A stretch of 11,098 nt of DNA from Boothiomyces macroporosus. Its lineage: Eukaryota; Chytridiomycota; Chytridiomycetes; Rhizophydiales; Terramycetaceae. This document shows positions 900 through 10,963 of the stretch, in pieces. Made by a program: the position numbers and the translations under genes. Position 1 is the first letter of the stretch. Each line of letters begins with the position of its first letter. Where the stretch lies: assembly GCA_027604185.1 (NCBI GenBank), contig JADGKB010000210.1, positions 1-11,098 of the forward strand, written 5' to 3'. Below the pieces are notes generated by a model. That model saw only the letters and a list, made by a program, of their open reading frames with translations. It did not search any database and was not told the origin of the DNA.

Positions 900-1963
900 G
901 AATTATACAGTCCTTCTTTTTTTCTTTGCTGCTACTAGTAGATTCAGTACCAACCCTTTCATGTCTCTGCTCTCTTTCGCGCTGCTCTATAGCTCTCTCT
1001 GTTTGTTGTCTTTGCTGCTCTTCATAATCATACTGCTGCTGCAACTGCCTCGCCAATTCATCATCATTCCCAGTCCCAAATTCTTGAAAGTTGTAGTTGT
1101 AAAACTTGCAGTCACCATCTAGAACTAAATCTTGCCATACTACATCTTCATCAAAATACCCTTCATCAGTCACTAGGCAATAAAGTTTGTTTTCATTTCG
1201 AGTAAGAACACTGAAATGGTTATTGTAGAAGAATACACATGGCTCGTTCACTGTAACCAAAAGTGCTTCAATGCCAGCAAGGGTCAACTGCCCTTGCTGT
1301 AAAAACTCTCGGCACACCAGTCCTTCAACCGTATCTTTGATTCCTTCTTCTACCACCTTGGTTACTTGTGATTACCTTATTGTAGCACTTTAGATTATTG
1401 ATCACTTTATAGTATTGGTCCTGAGGATCAATTACCCACCCATGATAAATCTGTATTCTGAGCAATTCAAAAGGCGAAAGTAAATCCGTATATTCTACAT
1501 GTATACTGTCAAAGTAAATATTTACATCCAACCCATAGTTTAGCCTTGGAAGCACTTTGAGCGTGTCGTCAAGAATCTTTTCATCGTTTGCGTTTGTGAT
1601 TTGAATGGATAAAATGTACTGACAGAGTAGATTTAAAAGCTCTTCCAAAGAAAGGTCTCTGTTTATCTCGATGCGGTTGGTTATTGAAAGTAAGTTTGCG
1701 AGGGCTAATAGTGGACAAGGGCCATTCTCGTTTTGTAAGAGGATACACTTGTCTGGAGCAATTTGCTTGCATTTAAACTTTTCTTCTGTTGGTTTGTTTG
1801 GTTCTGAGAGCACTGGTGGCTCGGCATTACTTTCTCCCTGCGCTTCTTTGCTTTCAGTATTCGCCTTTGCTTGCTCTTCAACTCTCTGGTTGTTGTCGGT
1901 CGGAATTTCATTGTCCTGGACTTGCTCTTCAGCTCTCTGGACACTTTGGTTTTCAGATTGCAT
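895..1963 (-). CDS. MINDY1: MINDY-family deubiquitinase (Lys48-linked ubiquitin), two exons
   Basis: Exons 1963-1376 and 1356-895 join across a 19-nt intron to give 349 residues. MINDY enzymes are cysteine proteases that trim Lys48-linked ubiquitin chains. The catalytic Cys is C83 in LLQNENGPCPLLALANLL, with the oxyanion Gln at Q77; the catalytic His is H243 in FFYNNHFSVL. IYHGWVIDPQ (about 172-181) and LVTDEGYFDEDVVW (257-270) are further family blocks. The joined reading YNKVVEEGIKDTVEGLVCREFL aligns with the family only if the intron is removed. The N-terminal 60 residues are acidic, Gln/Glu-rich and probably disordered. After the catalytic domain comes an MIU-like ubiquitin-binding helix (DDELARQLQQQ, about 294-304), a charged Gln/Glu/Arg stretch, and a C-terminal CIIQ that fits a CAAX farnesylation box, implying membrane attachment. 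ATG 1963 is the first Met in frame. It diverges from the sulfatase-like gene. Confidence 0.93.
1357..1375 (-). other. 19-nt intron in MINDY
   Basis: GTAATCACAAGTAACCAAG, phase 0, between AAG and GTG. TAAC sits at bases 12-15. Retention shifts the frame and ends 11 codons into the next exon. The spliced protein restores a continuous MINDY fold. Confidence 0.9.
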
Positions 1964-2467
1964 CTTGAATGGATAAACTTTACCTGATTGAGCTGCAGGG
2001 ACAACTGCTTCTAGAAGAATCGAACACCAAAACCAAACTCGGAGAATTTGTATATCCGTATCTGTATATAGGGTAATTAAAGCTGATTAAAGGAACCACA
2101 AGATTCAAGGCAAAAAAGAGACTCTTAAAGAACCCATTGTTGTACTGCCTTCTAGAACAGTAATCTATGAAAAGCTGATTTTCAAATCTAGACCAGAATT
2201 CATAATCAATAAATAGCGTTCTTAATTCCATCAATTTGACAGACCAAAAAGAACCAACCATTCATTAAAGCTCGACCAATCATATCAACGGTTGCCCACG
2301 TGATTTTCCTCGGTTTTTAGTTCAAAGTACAAAAAAAGCCGAAATTTGAATCAAAGAAAAAAATATTTGAGGTCCAAGTTGGAGATATGCATTCAAAGAA
2401 TATTTGTCGCCATTGTATTTTTAATTTAGCATGAAAAACCCCAATTTCCTCTTGCTGTCGTGTCCCA
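1964..2467. promoter_or_regulatory. 504-bp divergent intergenic region (MINDY / sulfatase-like)
   Basis: This AT-rich stretch holds no convincing gene and must carry the promoters of both flanking genes. It contains a CACGTG E-box (2297-2302) and two copies of the palindrome TTCTAGAA (2009-2016 and 2150-2157). A 93-codon minus-strand ORF at 1980-2261 has no recognisable features and I do not call it. Confidence 0.6.
2297..2302. promoter_or_regulatory. CACGTG E-box
   Basis: On the minus strand the context reads ATCACGTG, which fits the Cbf1/CDEI consensus RTCACRTG; bHLH factors bind this core. It lies 166 bp upstream of the sulfatase-like ATG and is shared by a divergent promoter. A 6-bp motif can occur by chance. 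Confidence 0.35.
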
Positions 2468-4522
2468 ATGTTGTCACAAAACATGGTCAAACCTCTGAGG
2501 CTTTTTTTCCAAATGCAATATTTGTTCATATTCAGTAAATCGTACTTTCTGTCGATTCTGTTGGTTGGATTCTTTTACAAATGCGTTTTGGCATATCTCG
2601 ACATTGGCCACTACAATTGGATTGAAATGTTCATCTACTTTCCCTCAATCATGTACCAAGACCTCATTCTAGTGTTTGGAGGATATTACCTTGATTCTCT
2701 GCTGATTTCTAATTTTGGTGGATGGGCAATGCTTGGATATTTAGTGCTCGGGCTTGTAAAACTGTTCAATTTGTTCCTGCTGCTTACTTGCATAACTGCG
2801 ATATTTGTTTCTGGGGCAGAGTTGGATGTTGGTATCATCTACAAAGTAATTGCCAACTGGAAGCAGTTTTCCAAGATGGCATCTTCTCCTGAAGAAATGA
2901 ATACAATGCAGACAATATACGGGACTTACTTTGTGATCTTGGCAATTATCATTTGGATCAATTACTTGAGACAGAAAACCACTGCGCAATACATTTCGCT
3001 ATCAACCAGAAAGCCTATTGGAAAGAGAAAGATTTTTCAATGGGCAACTTGGTACATGGTCTATCTGCTCGGTGCGTTGTTAATTCGCCCCCTCTGGCCT
3101 TACAGCAACATGTCAAAGTATGTGCTGTTCAAATTTATCGCTGCGCCATGGACCGACAGAGTATCTTCCTGGGGCATATCAAACACAGAGCCGGACGCTT
3201 TCTTCAAGACCGATAACGTAGATTTACCAATTGAAAAAGTATCTGACTTCTCTTTCCTTCAGCGAACAAACACATCAGAAATCAAGAACGTGCTGTGGTT
3301 TACCTTTGAATCGGCAAGAGCAGAAGTTTATCCTTTCAATTACAACTCTACTTTTGCCAAACGAGTATTGACTGAAAAAGCAATGTCTGAAAGGAAAATC
3401 ACACCATTTATGGATGAGTTTGTGAAGGAATGTTCAATTGCAACTGGTGCATCAACTGCTGCTTCGTATACTATCAAATCTATTTTAGCAATGCAATGCT
3501 CAATGTATCCATACCCGTCCGACTTTATTTCTGAAGATGAAAGGGCATATTACAAGACTTGTCTTCCGACGCATATGAAACAGAATGGCTTTGCTTCTAT
3601 TTTTATGGAGCCATGTACCGTCTTTGATAAACTGGACAGGGTTCTTGCAAAGATGAACATGTCAATGTATGGCAAAGAAGAAATTGACAAGGAATTCAAA
3701 AATGGCGCTCCATACGATCCTGTGAATTACTTTGGGTACGGTGATGATGTAATGCTGGATAGAATGTTTGCCTGGATCGAAAAGAAAGTTGAATCAAAAG
3801 TGCCATTCTACTTTTCGTCAATTACCAATACCAACCATCATCCATGGAACTCGCCTAAAGGCTGGGAAAAGCAAGACTTTGCCAAAGAAGAGTTCCACAT
3901 GTCCAACAACTATCTCAACACTGTTGCATACACTGATACAATGATCAAAAAAGTAGTTGATTATTTGAAAAAGAAGGGAATCGCGAATGAAACTCTTTTG
4001 ATTATCAACGGCGATCACGGTAGTGCCTTTGGTGAACAGGGTATGGTTGGTACTACCAATCGTTTAGCAGTGACTTTCAAAGTGCCATTAATCCTGTGGA
4101 CAGATAATGAAAAATGGAAGCCTTTGTTAAAGAATAGAAAACTTTTAGGTGATAGAACTACCATGGACATCCTGCCTACTATCTTGGATGTCTTAAATGA
4201 CAAATTTACTCCAAATACCAGATTTGACTATGGGTATGAAGGAGATAGTCTCGTCCATCCGCCAATCGATAAACCAAGATTTGGGTTTTCAAATCCTGGT
4301 CTTAGGGCCATTCAAGTCAGAGAAAAAGACATGAAAATGTCTATTGACTCTTCTGGCTACACGTCTGTCTACAATTTGAAAACTGATCCTGATGAAAGCA
4401 ATCCGTTGGATTTGAACACTTATCAAGGGGGTAAATATTCCAAGTGGCATGAAAGGGCTAGAGCTTTGATTGGGCAAAAGATTAGAGAGCTAGAGAAAGC
4501 TTATGGACCTGTTAATCTATAA
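2468..4522 (+). CDS. Membrane-anchored LtaS/sulfatase-fold (alkaline phosphatase superfamily) enzyme
   Basis: 684 residues in one exon. The N-terminal part (about 1-207) has about five hydrophobic segments (near 24-43, 53-80, 86-115, 150-166 and 190-207). The rest is a sulfatase-fold domain, probably extracytoplasmic. This layout matches lipoteichoic-acid synthase and the related fungal membrane 'sulfatase' proteins. Metal-site residues are visible: E281 in VLWFTFESARAEVYPF, the nucleophile region ATGASTAASYT (325-335; S329 or T330 the likely nucleophile), H457/H458 in NTNHHPW, and D516/H517 in IINGDHGSAFGEQG. The Cys-X-Pro-X-Arg signature that true sulfatases use to make formylglycine is absent, so a phospho- or phosphoglycerol-transferase, or a phosphodiesterase, is likelier than a sulfatase; that is inference. 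ATG 2468 is the first Met; a second at codon 6 is possible. An 18-19 bp tandem repeat follows the stop at once. Confidence 0.88.
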   Translation: MLSQNMVKPLRLFFQMQYLFIFSKSYFLSILLVGFFYKCVLAYLDIGHYNWIEMFIYFPSIMYQDLILVFGGYYLDSLLISNFGGWAMLGYLVLGLVKLFNLFLLLTCITAIFVSGAELDVGIIYKVIANWKQFSKMASSPEEMNTMQTIYGTYFVILAIIIWINYLRQKTTAQYISLSTRKPIGKRKIFQWATWYMVYLLGALLIRPLWPYSNMSKYVLFKFIAAPWTDRVSSWGISNTEPDAFFKTDNVDLPIEKVSDFSFLQRTNTSEIKNVLWFTFESARAEVYPFNYNSTFAKRVLTEKAMSERKITPFMDEFVKECSIATGASTAASYTIKSILAMQCSMYPYPSDFISEDERAYYKTCLPTHMKQNGFASIFMEPCTVFDKLDRVLAKMNMSMYGKEEIDKEFKNGAPYDPVNYFGYGDDVMLDRMFAWIEKKVESKVPFYFSSITNTNHHPWNSPKGWEKQDFAKEEFHMSNNYLNTVAYTDTMIKKVVDYLKKKGIANETLLIINGDHGSAFGEQGMVGTTNRLAVTFKVPLILWTDNEKWKPLLKNRKLLGDRTTMDILPTILDVLNDKFTPNTRFDYGYEGDSLVHPPIDKPRFGFSNPGLRAIQVREKDMKMSIDSSGYTSVYNLKTDPDESNPLDLNTYQGGKYSKWHERARALIGQKIRELEKAYGPVNL

Positions 4523-4526
4523 TAAA
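4521..4526 (+). terminator. AATAAA overlapping the sulfatase-like stop codon
   Basis: The stop TAA (4520-4522) shares its last two bases with AATAAA (4521-4526). The repeat array starts 4 nt later. Confidence 0.5.
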
Positions 4527-4529
4527 CAG

Positions 4530-4672
4530 TAATTAGACACTATTTCTGTAATTAGGCATTGTTTCTGTATTTAGGCACTGTTCTGTAATTGGACACTGTT
4601 TTTATAATTAGACACTATTTCTGTAATTAGGCACTGTTCTGTATTTAGACTCTGTTTCTGTATTTAGGCATT
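4530..4672 (+). repeat. Tandem minisatellite, about 7.6 copies of an 18-19 bp unit
   Basis: Units start at 4530, 4549, 4568, 4586, 4605, 4624, 4642 and 4661 (the last is partial). The consensus is close to TAATTAGGCACTGTTTCTG. Units vary at A/G in 'TTAG(A/G)CA', TAATT versus TATTT, and one T more or less near the end. The array begins 7 nt after the stop and probably lies in the 3' UTR. Copies differ by a few bases each, so it is not freshly expanded. There are no spacers, so it is not CRISPR-like. Confidence 0.9.
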
Positions 4673-4830
4673 AATGATCTTCTTCATACTGGGTGAATCT
4701 AAACTAGGAAGATCAAGCTGCCAAACAAGATTACAAATGCCAAAAGATTTTGTATTAGTAGCAGGAATGTAGCTGGCCAGTTAATTTAGAGAGATATTAC
4801 GTAAGCAAAAAAGTTTAACATTTTTTCCCA
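4673..4830. other. Intergenic remainder before the methyltransferase
   Basis: 158 bp of AT-rich sequence between the repeat array and the methyltransferase ATG, with no ORF or recognisable motif. It presumably holds that gene's promoter; a run of T and C (TTTTTTCCCA) directly precedes the ATG. Confidence 0.4.
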
Positions 4831-5699
4831 ATGATGCACAGTGTAAATTATACTAGAGTAAAATCACACTATCACTCATTGTTATCCCAGCATTATACTT
4901 GGACTTTTGGAGGCGGCGGTGCCAAGCAATCGAATAACTACAAGCTGCTCTCTGATTATCTCAAAGATGGGAAGGGTAAAATCGCAGTTGACTTGGGATG
5001 TGGTTCTGGATTCCAATCTATCCCTTTAATGCAGTTAGGTTAGTTGTACTAATGTAGGTAACTATATATAATACAGGATATCATGTTTACTGTGTGGATT
5101 CGTCTACTCAGCTGCTAGAAGAATTGAAAGAGAATGCGCCAAATACAAACTACACTCTGGTAGAAACAGATATGCTGTCTTACACTCACAAGGCAGATGT
5201 AGTGGTTTGCATGGGAGATTCAATAACGCATTTGGCAAACCTTGACGAGGTTGAATTGCTTCTTAGGAATGTTTATGAAATGCTTGACGGCTTGTTTTTT
5301 ATTTCGTTCAGAGACTTGACTGTGGAAATGTTTGATTGTGACAGGTAGGCAATTATCATCTCCAATCACGCAATTTTCAAATATGGAAATTCAACGGATT
5401 TTAGAGAATTAATGCTAGATTTATCCCCGTCAGATCTGATGAAAGAACCGTGTTTACTTGCTTTTTAGAATGGAAGTCTAGTGGAAATGGATGCTTGGTA
5501 AAAATCACGGATTTGGTTCATGTAAAGAAAGGCATTGGTAATCAAATATAACATAGGTGCTTGGGAATTATGTACTAGTTGGTATGAAAAGCTGGGAATC
5601 TCTATTGATTGGCTAAGACAGAAAGGGTTGGAAATTGGATTTACCGTGCTGGCTGAAGGACAGGACCAAGGAATGGAAATGATTATCTTCAAGAAATAA
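4831..5699 (+). CDS. Class I SAM-dependent methyltransferase of bacterial type, four exons
   Basis: Exons 4831-5038, 5077-5344, 5419-5537 and 5557-5699 give 245 residues. Rossmann methyltransferase motif I is IAVDLGCGSGFQSIPL (51-66), the ribose-binding acidic end of strand 2 is YCVDSS (74-79), and VVVCMGDSITHL (111-122) follows. The later block RFIPVRSDERTVFTCFLEW (159-177) is, as I recall, the signature of a family known mainly from bacteria and archaea whose substrate is unknown. The N-terminus HYHSLLSQHYTWTFGGGGAK also fits that family. Each splice choice is fixed by this homology: Y71 after G70, R159-F160, and GAWELCTSWYEK from 199. The second ATG codon (4834) is an equally good start. 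No signal or targeting peptide is evident. Possible horizontal acquisition followed by intron gain is an inference. Confidence 0.87.
5039..5076 (+). other. 38-nt intron made of two abutting 19-nt intron-like units (methyltransferase)
   Basis: Unit 1 (5039-5057) is GTTAGTTGTACTAATGTAG; unit 2 (5058-5076) is GTAACTATATATAATACAG. Each starts GT, ends AG and has TAAT at bases 12-15, as the stand-alone 19-nt introns do. Excision as one 38-mer or as two 19-mers gives the same mRNA. Retaining unit 2 alone gives an early TAA. Confidence 0.85.
5345..5418 (+). other. 74-nt intron in the methyltransferase
   Basis: The only long intron in the window. It runs from GTAGG to TTAATGCTAG, phase 2 in an AGA codon, and restores DRFIPVRSD. 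No internal GT exists, so it cannot be a chain of mini-introns. An alternative acceptor after TTTTAG (5404) would give a 60-nt intron and a truncated protein. Confidence 0.85.
5538..5556 (+). other. 19-nt intron in the methyltransferase
   Basis: GTAATCAAATATAACATAG, phase 1, TAAC at bases 12-15. Retention reads into an in-frame TAA inside the intron. Confidence 0.9.
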
Positions 5700-5999
5700 G
5701 CAGTTATTTGTGTTGTTCTGTTTCTAATTACATCCACTTTAAAATACCTTATATCGCTTAGCTACAAATCTCTTGCGGTGAGTTGATTCGTTTTGCCCAA
5801 CTCATAAAGGTCTTTGAGTAGCCAAATGTTACACAAAAAAAACGACAATTAACTCCACGAAAAACTGATTCGCCTCCATATTCGCAAACCAGCAAAATGG
5901 TTCCCAAGGCAGTCGATGGTAGTTTCAGGCTGTTTTTTAGTCCTTTTTTTGTTCCAATTTGGAAAAGCCACCATTGAGACCTTGAAACAACGCCTCATT

Positions 6000-6023
6000 T
6001 AAAATGAAAATTGTTTCATTTTA
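6000..6023 (+). promoter_or_regulatory. Perfect 10-bp inverted repeat just before the start codon
   Basis: Arms TAAAATGAAA (6000-6009) and TTTCATTTTA (6014-6023) flank the loop ATTG. If transcribed it forms a 10-bp hairpin ending 10 nt before ATG 6034, with the upstream ATG (6004) inside the stem. Confidence 0.5.
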
Positions 6024-6033
6024 CACTTTTTGA
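6004..6033 (+). promoter_or_regulatory. Upstream ORF of nine codons ending directly at the main ATG
   Basis: ATG 6004 opens a nine-residue frame (MKIVSFYTF). Its TGA (6031-6033) is immediately followed by the main ATG (6034). If present in the mRNA, this favours termination-reinitiation control of the membrane protein. The transcription start is unknown. Confidence 0.4.
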
Positions 6034-7452
6034 ATGATTCTGTTCACACTGCTACTGTCATTGATAGCGACGTTGGCAGCTGCACAGAAGACTTGTACTG
6101 CTCACAGTGACTGTCCAGGCTCTTTTTGTCAGTTTCAAACAACACCTACTGGACCTGTTGGAACTTGTGCACCTGTTGGAACTGCAACTGTAGCAACATC
6201 AGCAAGCACTCCAACGCTAGTCACATGTATTTCTAATAGCACTGTGTCGCTAGGCGGTTGTCCTACTGGCCAGTTATGTATAAAGCAAGTGTGCACTTCC
6301 CCAGTGGACGAAGCAAAGTCGTTTTTCTCTCCAACTGTACGTTATATTTCATTATAGGTGATTGCGATTATTATTGGTGTGGCAGTTTTGATTTTGGGTC
6401 TATGCGGGTGCTGGATTTGCTGTTGCTGTAATATTTGCTGTTTTGCTGGAAAGACAGCTGGCAAAGCTACTAAGGGAGTAGTTAAAGGCGGGGCCGCTAT
6501 AATTGCTGCTCCATTTTCTGGTTCAAAAAGAAGTGAGGAAAGAAGTAGGAATAATACAAGAGAGAATTCATCTAGAAATGATTACTCCCGAACTAACGCT
6601 CCTGCACCGCCAGCTGATGATTACAGGCCTCAACTCAATCCAGCAACGAGGCCTGAAAAGTCTGGTCCCGCTCCTTTACCTGCAAATTATCAAGCTCCGC
6701 CAAAGCAATATGAAGCTCCAAAGCAAAAGTACGCTTATGAGGAAGTTGTAGAAATAGTTCCTATTGCTCCTCCACCACAGCAATATGCTAGCTATCCTGT
6801 TCCTGCACCTCCAGTTCAAGCTCCTGCTCCATACCAACCACCGCCTCAAAGCTACGATATTCCTCAATCTTATCCTCCTCAGAATCATCCTCAAAACTAT
6901 CCACCTCAGAATTACAGCCCAAAATATAACGACTATGCTCAGCCTTCCTCATACAATTCTCCTCCAATAGTTAGACAGAATTCAAAGAGCACTAATTATG
7001 ATAGCCAAAGAGCAGAAAACTCTGTAAAAGATTTAGGTAATTTGAAACCAGCTGGTATTCCGGTTTCAAAGCCTTACAAACCAGTAATGAACCAAAAAGT
7101 TGGTCCAATTGTTTCGGATATGAAAAGGCCGCCAACTACGCCAGGGTTCTTTGGATTTTGGGATAAGAAGGGTAAATTCCACCAAGGATTCACTGATGAT
7201 GATAATTTTGTACACGGAGGTGTGTTTGATGACCAAGGGTTCTTCCATTTCGGGGTATTTGGATCTGTGGAACCTATACTAGTTGAAGATTCGATGATGG
7301 CTACCGAGAGAGTTGCAAAAACAGAAACAGCAGTTAGTCTATCGGAGCGTTCAGATGTACATGATGAACCAAGAGTAGAAGTAAAAGATGTTAGAGATGC
7401 TATTTCGTTTGATGCTACCTACCGCGGTAGCTTTGATGTACAACAAAAATAA
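6034..7452 (+). CDS. Secreted-end/single-pass membrane protein: Cys-rich ectodomain, palmitoylation-like Cys cluster, Pro-rich tail
   Basis: Exons 6034-6336 and 6358-7452 give 465 residues. Signal peptide 1-17 (MILFTLLLSLIATLAAA) is followed by an ectodomain with eight Cys in two four-Cys groups (C21, C27, C32, C45; C65, C76, C82, C87) joined by a Thr/Ser/Ala linker. One membrane segment (about 102-121) runs into CGCWICCCCNICC, a likely palmitoylated cluster. The cytosolic tail is basic (131-175), then Pro/Gln/Tyr-rich (about 180-305) with repeated PPxxY words (PPKQY, PPQSY, PPQNY). It ends with three 11-residue repeats (370-402) and a charged tail. I do not recognise a named family. The layout resembles fungal wall sensors and, loosely, Shisa/WBP1-like adaptors of animals. 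A receptor or adaptor role is inference. The exon join is needed to link signal peptide and membrane segment. Confidence 0.82.
6337..6357 (+). other. 21-nt intron in the membrane protein gene
   Basis: It begins GTACGTTATA and ends CATTATAG, phase 0 between ACT and GTG. It lacks TAAY; TTCAT may serve as branch site. Retention gives an in-frame TAG at its last three bases, cutting the protein just before the membrane segment. Confidence 0.8.
7162..7260 (+). repeat. Three coding repeats of 33 nt (11 residues)
   Basis: The repeats are DKKGKFHQGFT, DDDNFVHGGVF and DDQGFFHFGVF, in exact 11-residue register (370, 381, 392). Pattern: D-x2-(G/N)-x-(F/V)-H-x-G-x2. The DNA copies have diverged, so the conservation is at protein level. 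Confidence 0.85.
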
Positions 7453-7453
7453 A
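7448..7453 (+). terminator. AATAAA overlapping the membrane protein stop codon
   Basis: The stop TAA (7450-7452) is bases 3-5 of AATAAA. The convergent NAD kinase signal lies only 46 nt away on the other strand. Confidence 0.55.
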
Positions 7454-7499
7454 AATATACAATATTTAAATATCTCGATCGTAACAGGATACCAACAGT

Positions 7500-7505
7500 T
7501 TTATT
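7500..7505 (-). terminator. AATAAA overlapping the NAD kinase stop codon
   Basis: On the minus strand GAATAAAAC holds both the stop TAA (7503-7501) and AATAAA (7505-7500). Confidence 0.55.
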
Positions 7506-8978
7506 CTCCTAAATCCATCCCAAACAAATCTTGAGCTAGTAAATCCAAATCTTCAGGTTCATCACCAAAGGCCTCTAGTTTCAAATTACTTCCAAACTGA
7601 GCATTTTCCGTTCCTCTCTGCCTAGTTCGTTGATTCCAGTGCAAAGCTCGTTTAAGCCCCTCAAACCAATCACCGCTAGATGAATCTTGGCAAACGGTAG
7701 GCACTGGATATCTTGACAGCTTGACTACAATATAATCGCCTTGCTTAAGTTCTGTGCGGTGTCGGCCATCGAATGACGCCCAAGCAGTAGATCTGGAATC
7801 AACAGGTACTTTGATCTGCAGCTCTGTAGAGTCTGGTAGCAGCATCGGTCTAAATGAAAGTGAATGTGCGCAAATTGGTGTTATTAGAAAAGATGGGACT
7901 TCTGGGTGGACTAAGCTTCCACCTGCAGATAACTAAATTAGTATTAATTACAGAGTAAGCGGTGCTGCCTGTCGGTGTTGAGACAACCAAGCCATCTGCT
8001 TGTACTGTAGTCAATGGTTTCTCCTCTACGTATAAATCAAGTTGCGACATGTAAGCCGACGGTCCTCTATCTACCACCAAATCATTAAGGATCTCAAAAG
8101 TCTCTTCAGGAACTGCTTTTTGTTCATTTAAACTAGGAACTGATTTTGATCTTTTCGATTGCTTTTTTGGTAAAGAAATATCGTATGATTTCGTCAATGA
8201 TTCCAGCGAGCCTCGATAGTCTCTTTCTGGAGACCGTCCTGGCCGCTCAAAAAAGGAGCTTCTGGACAACGGTCTTTTTTCTAGGTCAATAATGGTTACC
8301 AGCTAACGTGTTCTCATCCGGCATTCGTTCGTCATATGAAATTGTTACTGGACTAACTTCTTTATCTTTAGCCCTCCATATCGTACAAGACAAGCGCATA
8401 CGCATATTTACGTGGATGCCATCAATAAGATTGCCATGTTGAATTACTCTATCTAGAACACTGTCAACCTCATTAATTTTGAAATTAGTCAAGAACCCTA
8501 ATGAGCCCAAGTGAAATGGAATAACAGGTGGTACCTGGGTGGTTTGGAACATCCACGTAGTGTATAACACGGTGCCGTCTCCTCCCAAAGTAATAATAAA
8601 ATCGATATTATCTGGCTGAGAAGCACACAATTCTGCGGTCCATCCTTTCAAGTATTTCGCATAATGCGGGTGTTTCTGTACGATTTCCGAGTAGTAAAAT
8701 GACGGATTGTTGAGAAGCTTGTTTTCAATATAAACAACTAATTTCCGATTGTCAATTAAATGCCTAGCAAGTTCTCTGGTGAAATACACTAATTTTTGGT
8801 CCATCATCTTTGCTACTATCATTACTGAAGTTGGGTGTTCTAATTTCAAAAGTGCTTTTCCTGCTGTTTACGAAAACATACCTATGCCTTTGGCAGCATC
8901 TCGCACGCATAAAGCGGTTTCAGCCAAATCATGGGCTGATTTGGAGTAGGTCTTGTTTAGCGTACAAGAGTCGTTCAT
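7501..8978 (-). CDS. NADK: NAD(H) kinase, four exons
   Basis: Exons 8978-8882, 8860-8300, 8280-7952 and 7932-7501 give 472 residues. The enzyme phosphorylates NAD with ATP to NADP and so feeds reductive metabolism. Motifs: GGDGT (125-129, with the essential Asp at 127), FHLGSLGFLTNF (148-159), RMRLSCTIWR (186-195), LNDLVVDRGPSAY (284-296; most family members have NE rather than ND), QADGLVVSTPTGSTAYSLSAGG (313-334) and STAWASFDGR (377-386). The N-terminus SAHDLAETALCVRDAAKGIG resembles fungal Utr1. A basic, Ser-rich insert of about 60 residues (220-280) contains RSKSVP, a mode-1 14-3-3 word. The C-terminal tail is acidic. ATG 8978 is the first Met giving this N-terminus; 49 bp separate it from the divergent RING gene. 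No mitochondrial presequence is evident, so it is probably cytosolic. Confidence 0.94.
7933..7951 (-). other. 19-nt intron 3 of NAD kinase
   Basis: GTAATTAATACTAATTTAG, phase 0, with yeast-like TACTAAT ending at base 15. It splits the invariant STAYS/LSAGGSL block, so its removal is certain. Retention shifts the frame. Confidence 0.95.
8281..8299 (-). other. 19-nt intron 2 of NAD kinase
   Basis: GTAACCATTATTGACCTAG, phase 1, TGAC at bases 12-15 (adenine kept at base 14). Retention gives an in-frame TGA within the intron. Confidence 0.88.
8861..8881 (-). other. 18- or 21-nt intron 1 of NAD kinase (CAGCAG acceptor)
   Basis: It begins GTATGTTTTCGTAAA and ends CAGCAG, so both an 18-nt (8881-8864) and a 21-nt (8881-8861) intron keep the frame. 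The products differ by one alanine (GI-G-KALL or GI-AG-KALL). TAAA occupies bases 12-15. Retention gives TAA after four codons. Confidence 0.82.
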
Positions 8979-9027
8979 GGTATTACGCGGGAGGGAAAAA
9001 TAGTTTGAATTTTCTCCTGGTTCAAGT
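8979..9027. promoter_or_regulatory. 49-bp bidirectional promoter, NAD kinase / RING ligase
   Basis: Only 49 bp separate the two start codons, so both 5' leaders and both core promoters must overlap or lie inside coding sequence. It contains ACGCGGGAGGG (8984-8994), the only GC-rich patch, near a motif class used by MBF/E2F factors. No TATA box is seen. Confidence 0.5.
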
Positions 9028-9932
9028 ATGATAAGGGGAAAACAGACAAAAATCGTAGACCTGGACAGCGAAAATAATGTAACTGAATCAACAAGACGAG
9101 CTAGGAAGAAAGGAAAGGAAAAATCTAATCCGCAAGACGATTTGGTATTTGTGAGGGACACAAGGACCAATGCGGAGAAAGGAAAGCGACAGGGAGAAAT
9201 AGGAGAGTCTTCCAAGAGTAAGCCTTTGGCAAAGTCGAAAAAAAGGAGCGCCGGTGAAACGAATATGCCGTCAAACAAAAGATCGAGGGAAAGTGACTCT
9301 GTAGTTACAGTAATTGACGACACTCCAAAGAAACCTTTGATTGTCGATATTGGCACAGATGTAGACACGCCGAATAATCGATCTGTTATCGATATATCTC
9401 CAGATACACCATCAGATATACAAATAATCTCCTCTACTACTAGACCTGTACAAAGGACTACACCACATGCATTCGCAGACGATGAAGAGCTGGCACGGCG
9501 ATTGCAGAATGAAGAGTATGAAGCTTATCAACCAACTTCTTACCTTCACTTGCTCCAGAGGGAGTTGGAGATGGATAGTTATCAAGACTTCGCGACGGAT
9601 ATACCAACAAACAACTATATCCCAGATGATCAATTCGATGATTCTTATGAAACACTGTTACGGTTAGGTGATTCAATTGGATCTGTCAGCACTGGATTGC
9701 CAAAATCTATCTACGAAAGTTATCCTACTATCAGGTATAAAGATGAAAAGCTGGAGCAGTGTGTAGTGTGTATGACTGATTACGAAAAAAAGGAGGTTGT
9801 AATGGGGCTACCGTGTCTACATTGGTTCCACAAAAAGTGTATTTTATCTTGGTTTGCGAATAGCAGCAAATGTCCAATGTAAGAATTCTCTAACATAGAT
9901 GTCGATTCGATTTAAAGCATAACCATGCGTAA
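9028..9932 (+). CDS. RING-H2 ubiquitin ligase with candidate SIM array and MIU
   Basis: Exons 9028-9878 and 9899-9932 give 294 residues. Without splicing the last RING cysteine is missing; after splicing the end reads KCPICRFDLK, completing C-x2-C-x14-C-x-H-x2-H-x2-C-x10-C-x2-C (245-285), a full RING-H2 that should recruit E2 and transfer ubiquitin. The N-terminal half is basic with NLS-like clusters (23-32, 69-74, 83-88). Several hydrophobic words next to acidic residues look like SUMO-interacting motifs: IVDLD (9-13), VVTVIDD (92-98), LIVDI (104-108), VIDI (120-123) and IQII (131-134). ADDEELARRLQNEEYE (150-165) fits an MIU. This order resembles Arkadia/RNF111 and other SUMO-targeted ligases; nuclear action on SUMOylated proteins is inference. 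It converges on the Rag gene (92 bp). Confidence 0.88.
9879..9898 (+). other. 20-nt intron in the RING ligase
   Basis: GTAAGAATTCTCTAACATAG, phase 2 (AT/A, Ile). TAAC sits five bases before the acceptor as in the 19-mers. It separates the last CP from IC of the RING; retention gives CPM-stop and loses the final zinc ligand. Confidence 0.9.
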
Positions 9933-9937
9933 GATAA

Positions 9938-9943
9938 AATAAA
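9938..9943 (+). terminator. AATAAA poly(A) signal of the RING ligase
   Basis: AATAAA begins 6 nt after the stop TAA (9930-9932). Confidence 0.5.
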
Positions 9944-10021
9944 GTATTTATAGATTAATTCTGATAGAAAGCTTTTAATGGTATCATGGGTTACTTCATT
10001 CATAACATATCTTGAAAATGA

Positions 10022-10027
10022 TTTTTA
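10022..10027 (-). terminator. AATAAA-type signal overlapping the Rag GTPase stop codon
   Basis: The minus strand reads GAATAAAAAT at the end of the gene; the stop TAA (10027-10025) is part of AATAAA. Confidence 0.5.
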
Positions 10028-10963
10028 TTCATGCTGTTGAATCATTAATGTTTGAATGGCCTTGGAAATAATATTAAAATTGTACTCTACCAACCCCTGC
10101 TTTTCAAACTGCTCTTTCCTAATCAAACAAACTAGTACAAGTTTTCTAATTTAGTGATTCTTACTCATTAATGGTATACAAATATAGCAACATTCCATTA
10201 TCCAAATGAATTATTGAATTTAATGGGTTTTCATTTGAATATATAAACGTCATATCTAGAATCACATCAATCATATCCGAGCATAGTTCGTAACTCTGCA
10301 TATCGACTGTATTAATAACGAGTACCTGGAGAACTATCAGTAGCGATATAAATCTTGCTATTTAAATCAAAAATAAACGCTTTTTCAATCCCTGAATTTG
10401 AACAAAACATATTCAATAGATTTTCTAATGCCGGTAATTCTGTAATCAATTTCTGTACAATTTTCGAAAATGCTTCAAAGATAGAGTGGTCGTAGATACT
10501 CGTTTGGTGAAAAGATAGATTGATTTGCTTTTCATTGTCAATCAGCTCATCATTGATTCGTTGGAACACGTCTCTTTGGATATCAATTTTATCGTCATCT
10601 GATAATCCATCCACTTTATGAATAAATATTTCAAATGAAATCTTTGGGTTTTGACTGTAAGCATTCAGCAGAATTGGAATAAGTTTATGCAGCGATTCAA
10701 TGTAATCATCCTGTGCATCTACGATATAAACGAGTGAATTTGTAGTAAAGAAATCCAGTTCTATTGAGTCCGGACAGTCCCATACTTGGAAATCGATAAA
10801 CGAGGAAATATTGATTTTGTGGATTTTCAAGGTTTGTTCCAGGTAAAGGGTTTCATTGGCTTGCATTTTATTGAAGACTACATTCTGGATACTGGATTTA
10901 CCTGATCTGGATTAAATTGGCTTACTTTTTCTGTCCCATTAGTAGTATTTTCAACTCATTCAT
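10025..10963 (-). CDS. GTR2: RagC/D (Gtr2)-type small GTPase, four exons
   Basis: Exons 10963-10926, 10906-10326, 10306-10165 and 10145-10025 give 293 residues. RagC/Gtr2 pairs with RagA/Gtr1 on the lysosome or vacuole and relays amino-acid status to TORC1. Visible: P-loop GQKKSGKSS (10-18), [10 protein letters not shown] (29-38), [10 protein letters not shown] (108-117; HKVD replaces NKxD, usual for RagC), [20 protein letters not shown] and [12 protein letters not shown], both near-identical to RagC, then the roadblock-like C-terminal domain ending in [20 protein letters not shown]. The first exon is only 38 nt and encodes the start of the P-loop. The G3/switch II region is abnormal: [22 protein letters not shown] lacks the usual Gly-Gln of WDFPGQ and about nine following residues. 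The gene diverges from a possible gene at the right edge. Confidence 0.94.
10146..10164 (-). other. 19-nt intron 3 of the Rag GTPase
   Basis: GTAAGAATCACTAAATTAG, phase 2, TAAA at bases 12-15. Retention gives GAG-TAA at once. Splicing restores [14 protein letters not shown]. Confidence 0.9.
10307..10325 (-). other. 19-nt intron 2 of the Rag GTPase
   Basis: GTACTCGTTATTAATACAG, phase 1, TAAT at bases 12-15. It splits [14 protein letters not shown], which is continuous in RagC. Retention gives an in-frame TAA. Confidence 0.93.
10907..10925 (-). other. 19-nt intron 1 of the Rag GTPase
   Basis: GTAAGCCAATTTAATCCAG, phase 2, TAAT at bases 12-15. It interrupts the P-loop (GQKK/SGKSS). Retention gives AAG-TAA at once. 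Confidence 0.93.

Follow-up and report, generated by a model that had tools for sequence, protein, structure and literature searches.

Predicted introns of 19 to 22 nucleotides throughout the genome of the chytrid Boothiomyces macroporosus, probably excised by a canonical spliceosome

The 11,098-nt stretch analysed here (the window) is contig C210 (JADGKB010000210.1) of the assembly of Boothiomyces macroporosus (15.2 Mb, 216 contigs; Chytridiomycota, Rhizophydiales, Terramycetaceae), and its predicted genes are interrupted by very short segments with GT-AG ends. Judged from sequence, these segments are, with a probability of about 0.9, U2-type spliceosomal introns that have been squeezed to 19-23 nt in most sampled genes and are likely excised by a canonical spliceosome working at a geometric minimum. 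The length peak lies at 19-22 nt genome-wide, with a mode of 20 nt. The host is a fungal genome and not a green-algal nucleomorph, as a matching protein of B. macroporosus indicates.

An initial annotation of the window had listed twelve introns, seven of them 19 nt long, and had read a 38-nt one as two such units. All twelve were located (Table 1), with lengths of 19 nt (seven), 21 nt (two) and 20, 38 and 74 nt (one each). Eleven had been credited with introducing a stop codon if retained, but retention of any single one leads to a premature stop (12/12). After splicing, the four window proteins scanned passed the Pfam cut-offs for MINDY_DUB, NAD_kinase, NAD_kinase_C, zf-RING_2 and Gtr1_RagA, and five of the eight junctions of the MINDY, NAD kinase, RING and Rag proteins lie within the matched domains. 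The introns do cut conserved blocks, as had been noted, namely the P-loop, the RING zinc site and the site right after TPTGSTAYS. The shared T-R-A-H at bases 12-15 was likewise borne out, being read by eye in all seven single 19-nt introns and in both units of the 38-nt one.

The length distribution was examined in a blind sample of 20 stretches of 10 kb (200 kb), spread over 20 of the contigs C1-C80 at positions fixed beforehand, with content ignored; together with the window these make up a set of 211 kb. Genes were called with a purpose-written finder, whose first version applied an equal cost to all intron lengths of 12-150 nt and was supplied only with GT and AG. For the coding model, training proceeded iteratively on GT-AG genes called in these same sequences, the window among them. 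In the 211 kb it called 15, 24, 19 and 12 GT-AG introns at 19, 20, 21 and 22 nt, with 5 at 23 nt and 1 at 18 nt. The 70 calls at 19-22 nt compare with 2-9 for each of 12 decoy dinucleotide pairs, an excess of GT-AG ends over chance as in U2-type introns, although such training favours GT-AG over the decoys, but no particular length. Introns of ordinary length were considered as the main class and rejected: GT-AG gave 78 calls of at least 24 nt, against 131-145 in the 12 decoy pairs.

The second version of the finder took its weights for donor and branch from the calls of 18-24 nt, and its length cost was still flat (12-400 nt). It was applied to 33 sequences: the window, all 20 blind stretches and a further 12 loci that came from searches for small nuclear RNA (snRNA) genes and splicing factors. 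Three loci were left out, L001 lying in the window, L024 being a chance match to U2 and L032 overlapping L031. The calls numbered 58, 95, 54, 29, 6 and 2 at 19 to 24 nt, none at 18 nt, three at 12-17 nt and one at 25-30 nt. In the blind stretches this flat-cost finder called 202 introns of 19-24 nt (39, 81, 47, 28, 6 and 1 at 19, 20, 21, 22, 23 and 24 nt) and none of 15-18 nt. Extrapolation from 202 per 200 kb to 15.2 Mb gives an estimated total of ~15,000 short introns, which is probably low because the finder recovered 8 of the 12 short units in the window.

A pattern independent of gene models (GTAH...TRAY, 1-3 bases, YAG) was also counted in the blind stretches, with the reversed sequence and a CT donor as controls. 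At 19-22 nt it gave 175 matches versus 25 and 16, respectively, and it stayed at background at 14-18 nt (28 versus 21 and 36), 23-30 nt (46 versus 44 and 52) and 31-60 nt (184 versus 190 and 161). Across the whole genome, GTAATTN{1,30}CTAAYNTAG had 173 matches versus 12 for the reversed pattern; among 100 matches listed, 59 were at 19 nt, 24 at 20, 5 at 21, 1 at 22, 1 at 16 and 10 at 28 nt or more. The same pattern with an extra base before TAG had 150 matches versus 28 in the control, and its 100 listed matches fell at 20 nt (50), 21 (20), 22 (6), 23 (3), 17-19 (five) and at least 26 nt (16). The matches listed are those on the lowest-numbered contigs, and duplicated stretches account for a few copies among them. 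Thus, the mode follows a one-base shift of the AG and the branch A stays at base 14, suggesting that what is constrained is the spacing between the 5' splice site and the branch A.

In the 244 introns called in the 33 sequences, the likely branch A occupies base 14 in 103, base 15 in 102, base 16 in 28, base 17 in 8, base 18 in 1 and before base 14 in 2. The gap from this A to the AG is 2-5 nt in 242 of them, mostly 3-4 nt. Because the model used at first had learned the branch, a recount was made on 113 blind-stretch introns called without a branch model. YTRAY is present in 71 of these, versus 8% in shuffled interiors. The 94 with a single TRAH 2-5 nt before the AG include none with the A before base 14 (the 19 others have none or several TRAH). 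As far as the sequences tell, the geometry is therefore a floor, with the branch A at base 14 or later, and not a fixed point. The branch motif is complementary to the GUAGUA of U2, again as in U2-type introns. At the donor, GTA is followed by A at +4 and T at +6, position +5 being weak, and the columns between donor and branch in introns of 19-22 nt are AT-rich and have no common sequence.

The splicing factors examined look canonical in sequence. The genome carries U1 (one copy), U2 (two copies) and U6 (one copy), as expected for U2-type introns, with AUACUUACCUG, GUAGUA and ACAGAGA intact; U1 scored 68.8 bits, slightly below Rfam's 69.5. The two U2 genes (L022 and L023) are different, and the branch-recognition region is intact in both. 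SF1 retains a Trp-bearing N-terminal motif, what we take to be its SF1-HH and KH-QUA2 regions and two zinc knuckles. U2AF65 scored below its family cut-off in a search of the unspliced gene; the spliced protein retains RRM1, RRM2 and the C-terminal UHM. U2AF35 was located by a degenerate pattern; once spliced, it aligns with Schizosaccharomyces pombe U2AF23 over residues 1-190 without a gap at any junction (E 7.5e-87), and it also aligns with four other chytrid homologues. These genes have short predicted introns of their own, of 24, 22 and 21 nt in SF1, of 19, 20, 19 and 19 nt, perhaps also a first of 21, in U2AF65, and of 21 (GC-AG), 19, 19 and 20 nt in U2AF35. The GC-AG intron (L036) starts seven bases past the beginning of the coding sequence (CDS). 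A Cir_N-domain protein, presumably Cwc25 judging by its Cir_N match and its N terminus, starts MGGGDLNLKKSWHP; MGGGDLN is present, and a loss of the Cwc25 GGG plug as in Stentor was not seen in this protein.

These results bear on a stricter proposal, implied by the initial annotation, in which intron length is sharply set at 19 nt, the branch A always occupies base 14, the branch-to-acceptor distance is constant, and U2, SF1/BBP or U2AF is altered. The seven window introns of 19 nt would agree with it, as would the whole-genome matches with a 3-nt gap to the AG, where 19 nt is the mode (59 of the 100 listed). Nevertheless, we consider it very unlikely, as it is already largely refuted by the blind loci, where 39 of 202 introns are of 19 nt and 81 of 20 nt. 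The ultrashort, genome-wide class was correctly anticipated, and its sharpness was not. Base 14 is one of two about equally frequent branch positions, the gap to the acceptor varies and the sharp limit is on the 5' side. Changes were looked for in the U2, SF1 and U2AF sequences and none were seen.

Junctions within protein domains were also assessed beyond the window. Twenty-four predicted genes passed a filter that required one or more short introns, no intron above 24 nt and fewer than 900 residues. Of their proteins, 20 were scanned against Pfam, one of them with a doubtful 14-nt call; the other four include two window genes scanned separately. In the 20 proteins, 24 of 36 short-intron junctions lie within a Pfam domain above cut-off, with three junctions each in an AAA ATPase, a P450 and a protein kinase as examples.

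Public protein records of the genus are affected by these segments. The two from B. macroporosus have one of six short introns right. The NAD kinase record (P0002, HK103_003026) has none of its three right and is without the block VQADGLVVSTPTGSTAYS; over all aligned parts it is identical to our spliced NAD kinase. A 91% relative from Terramyces sp. JEL0728 (P0001) is complete. The Rag GTPase record (P0241, HK103_003028) has one of three introns correctly removed, lacks the P-loop and ends at the third. In Boothiomyces sp. JEL0866 the U2AF35 record (P0169) begins at residue 63 and nine residues are gone at the third junction, which suggests that this species has such introns too. All three genus records checked are thus damaged at introns of 19-21 nt, and two lose a catalytic or nucleotide-binding block.

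That several segments are kept or misplaced in these records could also be taken to mean that they are not introns, but stay in the messenger RNA and are skipped by frameshifting or ribosome bypassing, or that the genes are decayed copies. This is extremely unlikely in our view, since GT-AG ends and a branch motif fitting U2 occur in U2AF35, SF1 and NAD kinase with the domains intact on either side, since 59 of the 76 predicted genes of the blind stretches carry a short intron, and since decoy ends give no peak.

Two back-to-back pairs scored as introns in the 211 kb, 19+19 (window position 5039) and 20+20 (L003:8930). Both units of the former are complete, with GT, TAAT at bases 12-15 and AG. 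In the latter the frame is kept if all 40 nt are removed and lost if none or only the first 20 are. With six decoy pairs, the stricter of two thresholds yielded no such case and the looser yielded one. Pairs of this kind could be insertions between the AG and the GT of an AGGT site, and together with the uniform size they would suit spliceosomal introns that are mostly recent insertions of a small, introner-like mobile unit and not shrunken old introns. Such an origin appears unlikely: the column counts of 19-22 nt introns reveal no shared interior, though no dedicated repeat-family search was made, and an intron-rich chytrid ancestor has been reconstructed (PMC8476143).

If the segments are U2-type introns excised by the canonical spliceosome, U1 would pair with GUAA, the YURAY motif would be bound by SF1 and then by U2, and U2AF35 would bind an AG only 2-5 nt from the branch A, so that U2AF65 would be left without a polypyrimidine tract in the usual place. 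Bases 1-6 would be held by U1 and later by U6, and U2 would occupy the branch heptamer (bases 9-15), which leaves about two nucleotides free. The floor would then arise because both helices would collide in shorter introns, and the minimum length would be 13 + branch A + 3 + AG = 19 nt. Double introns may be excised as two units or as one. A broader proposal, which we rate at somewhat below even odds, is that most of the ~15,000 introns of this fungus have been compressed to the smallest size physically possible for an unmodified spliceosome, the branch A lying 13 nt or more from the 5' splice site and the AG 2-5 nt further on. An intron of this size would be too small to hold the U1 and U2 small nuclear ribonucleoproteins together as the usual A complex does; exon definition or an immediate U1-to-U6 hand-over would therefore be called for, with U2AF65 acting without a polypyrimidine tract.

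Several points weigh against U2-type introns at a geometric minimum. Both splicing and the branch points are inferred from sequence, and the steric reason for the floor draws on general knowledge of spliceosome structure. The coding model was trained on its own GT-AG calls, its recovery in the window was incomplete and six of its seven window calls above 24 nt were wrong, which is why the calls of 31-400 nt in the blind stretches (24 and 104) are doubtful. The blind stretches have three calls of 13-14 nt, and the model-free pattern has a diffuse excess at 61-200 nt (936 versus 751 and 814) which, together with the one 74-nt window intron, makes some longer introns possible. The branch A was searched for within 2-6 nt before the AG in the 244 introns and within 2-5 nt in the 113. 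It falls at bases 11-13 in 6 of the 200 listed whole-genome matches, where the controls predict about 3; the floor is therefore sharp but not proven absolute, and may leak. The factor check covered U1, U2, U6, SF1, U2AF65, U2AF35 and the Cwc25-like protein, and the N-terminal exon of Isy1 was not readable with confidence.

The nearest known match is the introns of chlorarachniophyte nucleomorphs, a likeness that the initial annotation had rightly drawn. These measure 18-23 nt (19-24 nt here), with GT-AG and rare GC-AG ends, and 19 nt accounts for 70.3% in Bigelowiella natans and 20 nt for 35.8% in Lotharella vacuolata (PMC4494063, PMC4035089). Their rare 40- and 41-nt introns are explained as two fused units (PMC4494063), akin to the 38- and 40-nt pairs here, and the ultrasmall size class and GT-AG ends are common to both. 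In contrast, nucleomorphs are relic algal nuclei of ~0.37-0.61 Mb with incomplete snRNA sets, whereas the present genome is fungal, of 15.2 Mb, and has canonical U1, U2 and U6. A 2008 survey reports no branch-point signature for B. natans (PMC2483917), whereas B. macroporosus has one.

The introns of the heterotrich Stentor coeruleus share the narrow size class, the GT-AG ends and 3 nt from the likely branch A to the AG, but are 15-16 nt long and place the A at base 10 or 11, compared with 2 of 244 before base 14 here, and the Cwc25 GGG plug missing in Stentor (PMC9505925) is kept in the presumed Cwc25 of B. macroporosus. Those of Mikrocytos mackini are also narrow in size, numerous and sequence-conserved; they are of 16-17 nt, 224 in total, in an obligate parasite with 17-19 spliceosomal proteins found (PMC10245619). 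Yarrowia lipolytica, Trichomonas and Giardia likewise have a branch motif close to the AG without a 3' polypyrimidine tract, but they are intron-poor and have a single gap (2 or 4 nt; PMC2483917), as opposed to 2-5 nt and about 1.45 short introns per kb of CDS here. Cryptococcus neoformans, at the short end for fungi in the papers compared, is likewise an intron-rich fungus with short introns, but its means of 56-63 nt are ~3 times longer (PMC11913375, PMC8476143), in keeping with the earlier remark that introns near 20 nt are atypical of fungi. No report of such fungal introns was found in a literature search limited to open-licence papers.

The 2008 survey describes three short-intron, intron-rich genomes with weak constraint and no branch signature (PMC2483917). 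In B. macroporosus the donor is weak as expected from it and the branch is clear; the 224 mikrocytid introns may show a branch too. In the literature compared, introns this small come from relic nuclei, a parasite and ciliates, and here they occur throughout a 15-Mb chytrid genome. Since nothing unusual is apparent in its snRNAs and early splicing factors, this genome could give direct access to the smallest intron of a standard spliceosome. The apparent limit on the spacing between 5' splice site and branch can be put to a structural test.

Table 1. Predicted introns of the window, with double-intron units on separate lines.
Feature	Position	Strand	Remarks
19-nt intron, MINDY deubiquitinase gene (895-1963)	1357..1375	-	junction at residue 197, inside MINDY_DUB 71-286; stop if retained
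19-nt unit 1 of 38-nt double intron, methyltransferase-like gene (4831-5699)	5039..5057	+	own GT, TACTAAT and TAG
19-nt unit 2 of double intron, methyltransferase-like gene	5058..5076	+	zero exon between units
74-nt intron, methyltransferase-like gene	5345..5418	+	sole long one among the twelve; stop if retained
19-nt intron, methyltransferase-like gene	5538..5556	+	stop if retained
21-nt intron, predicted membrane protein gene (6034-7452)	6337..6357	+	stop if retained
19-nt intron, NAD kinase gene (7501-8978)	7933..7951	-	directly after TPTGSTAYS; domain scan, stop if retained
19-nt intron, NAD kinase gene	8281..8299	-	alignment to public record, stop if retained
21-nt intron, NAD kinase gene	8861..8881	-	alignment to public record, stop if retained
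20-nt intron, RING protein gene (start 9028)	9879..9898	+	cuts CPICR of zinc site; domain scan, stop if retained
19-nt intron, Rag GTPase (Gtr) gene (10025-10963)	10146..10164	-	stop if retained
19-nt intron, Rag GTPase gene	10307..10325	-	domain scan, stop if retained; also excised in public record P0241
19-nt intron, Rag GTPase gene	10907..10925	-	within P-loop GQKKSGKSS; domain scan, stop if retained

The gene at 4831-5699 is presumably methyltransferase-like. At 4529-4670, just past an open frame ending at 4522, the window holds a tandem array with a 19-bp period (GTAATTAGACACTGTTTCT, 7.4 copies), whose match to the intron length is perhaps due to chance. Positions 1-843 contain a gene fragment, which we take to be ABC-transporter-like, with a G+C of about 0.52 versus 0.30-0.46 elsewhere in the window; no intron was noticed in it. 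Elsewhere in the assembly, large repeated stretches are apparent from identical introns at constant offsets of 53,656 (C10), 42,596 (C2), 45,067 (C20) and 91,416 (between C20 and C31 coordinates), and L037 and L038 (C49 and C100) are identical over 3.1 kb. These repeated stretches are either segmental duplications or unmerged haplotypes.

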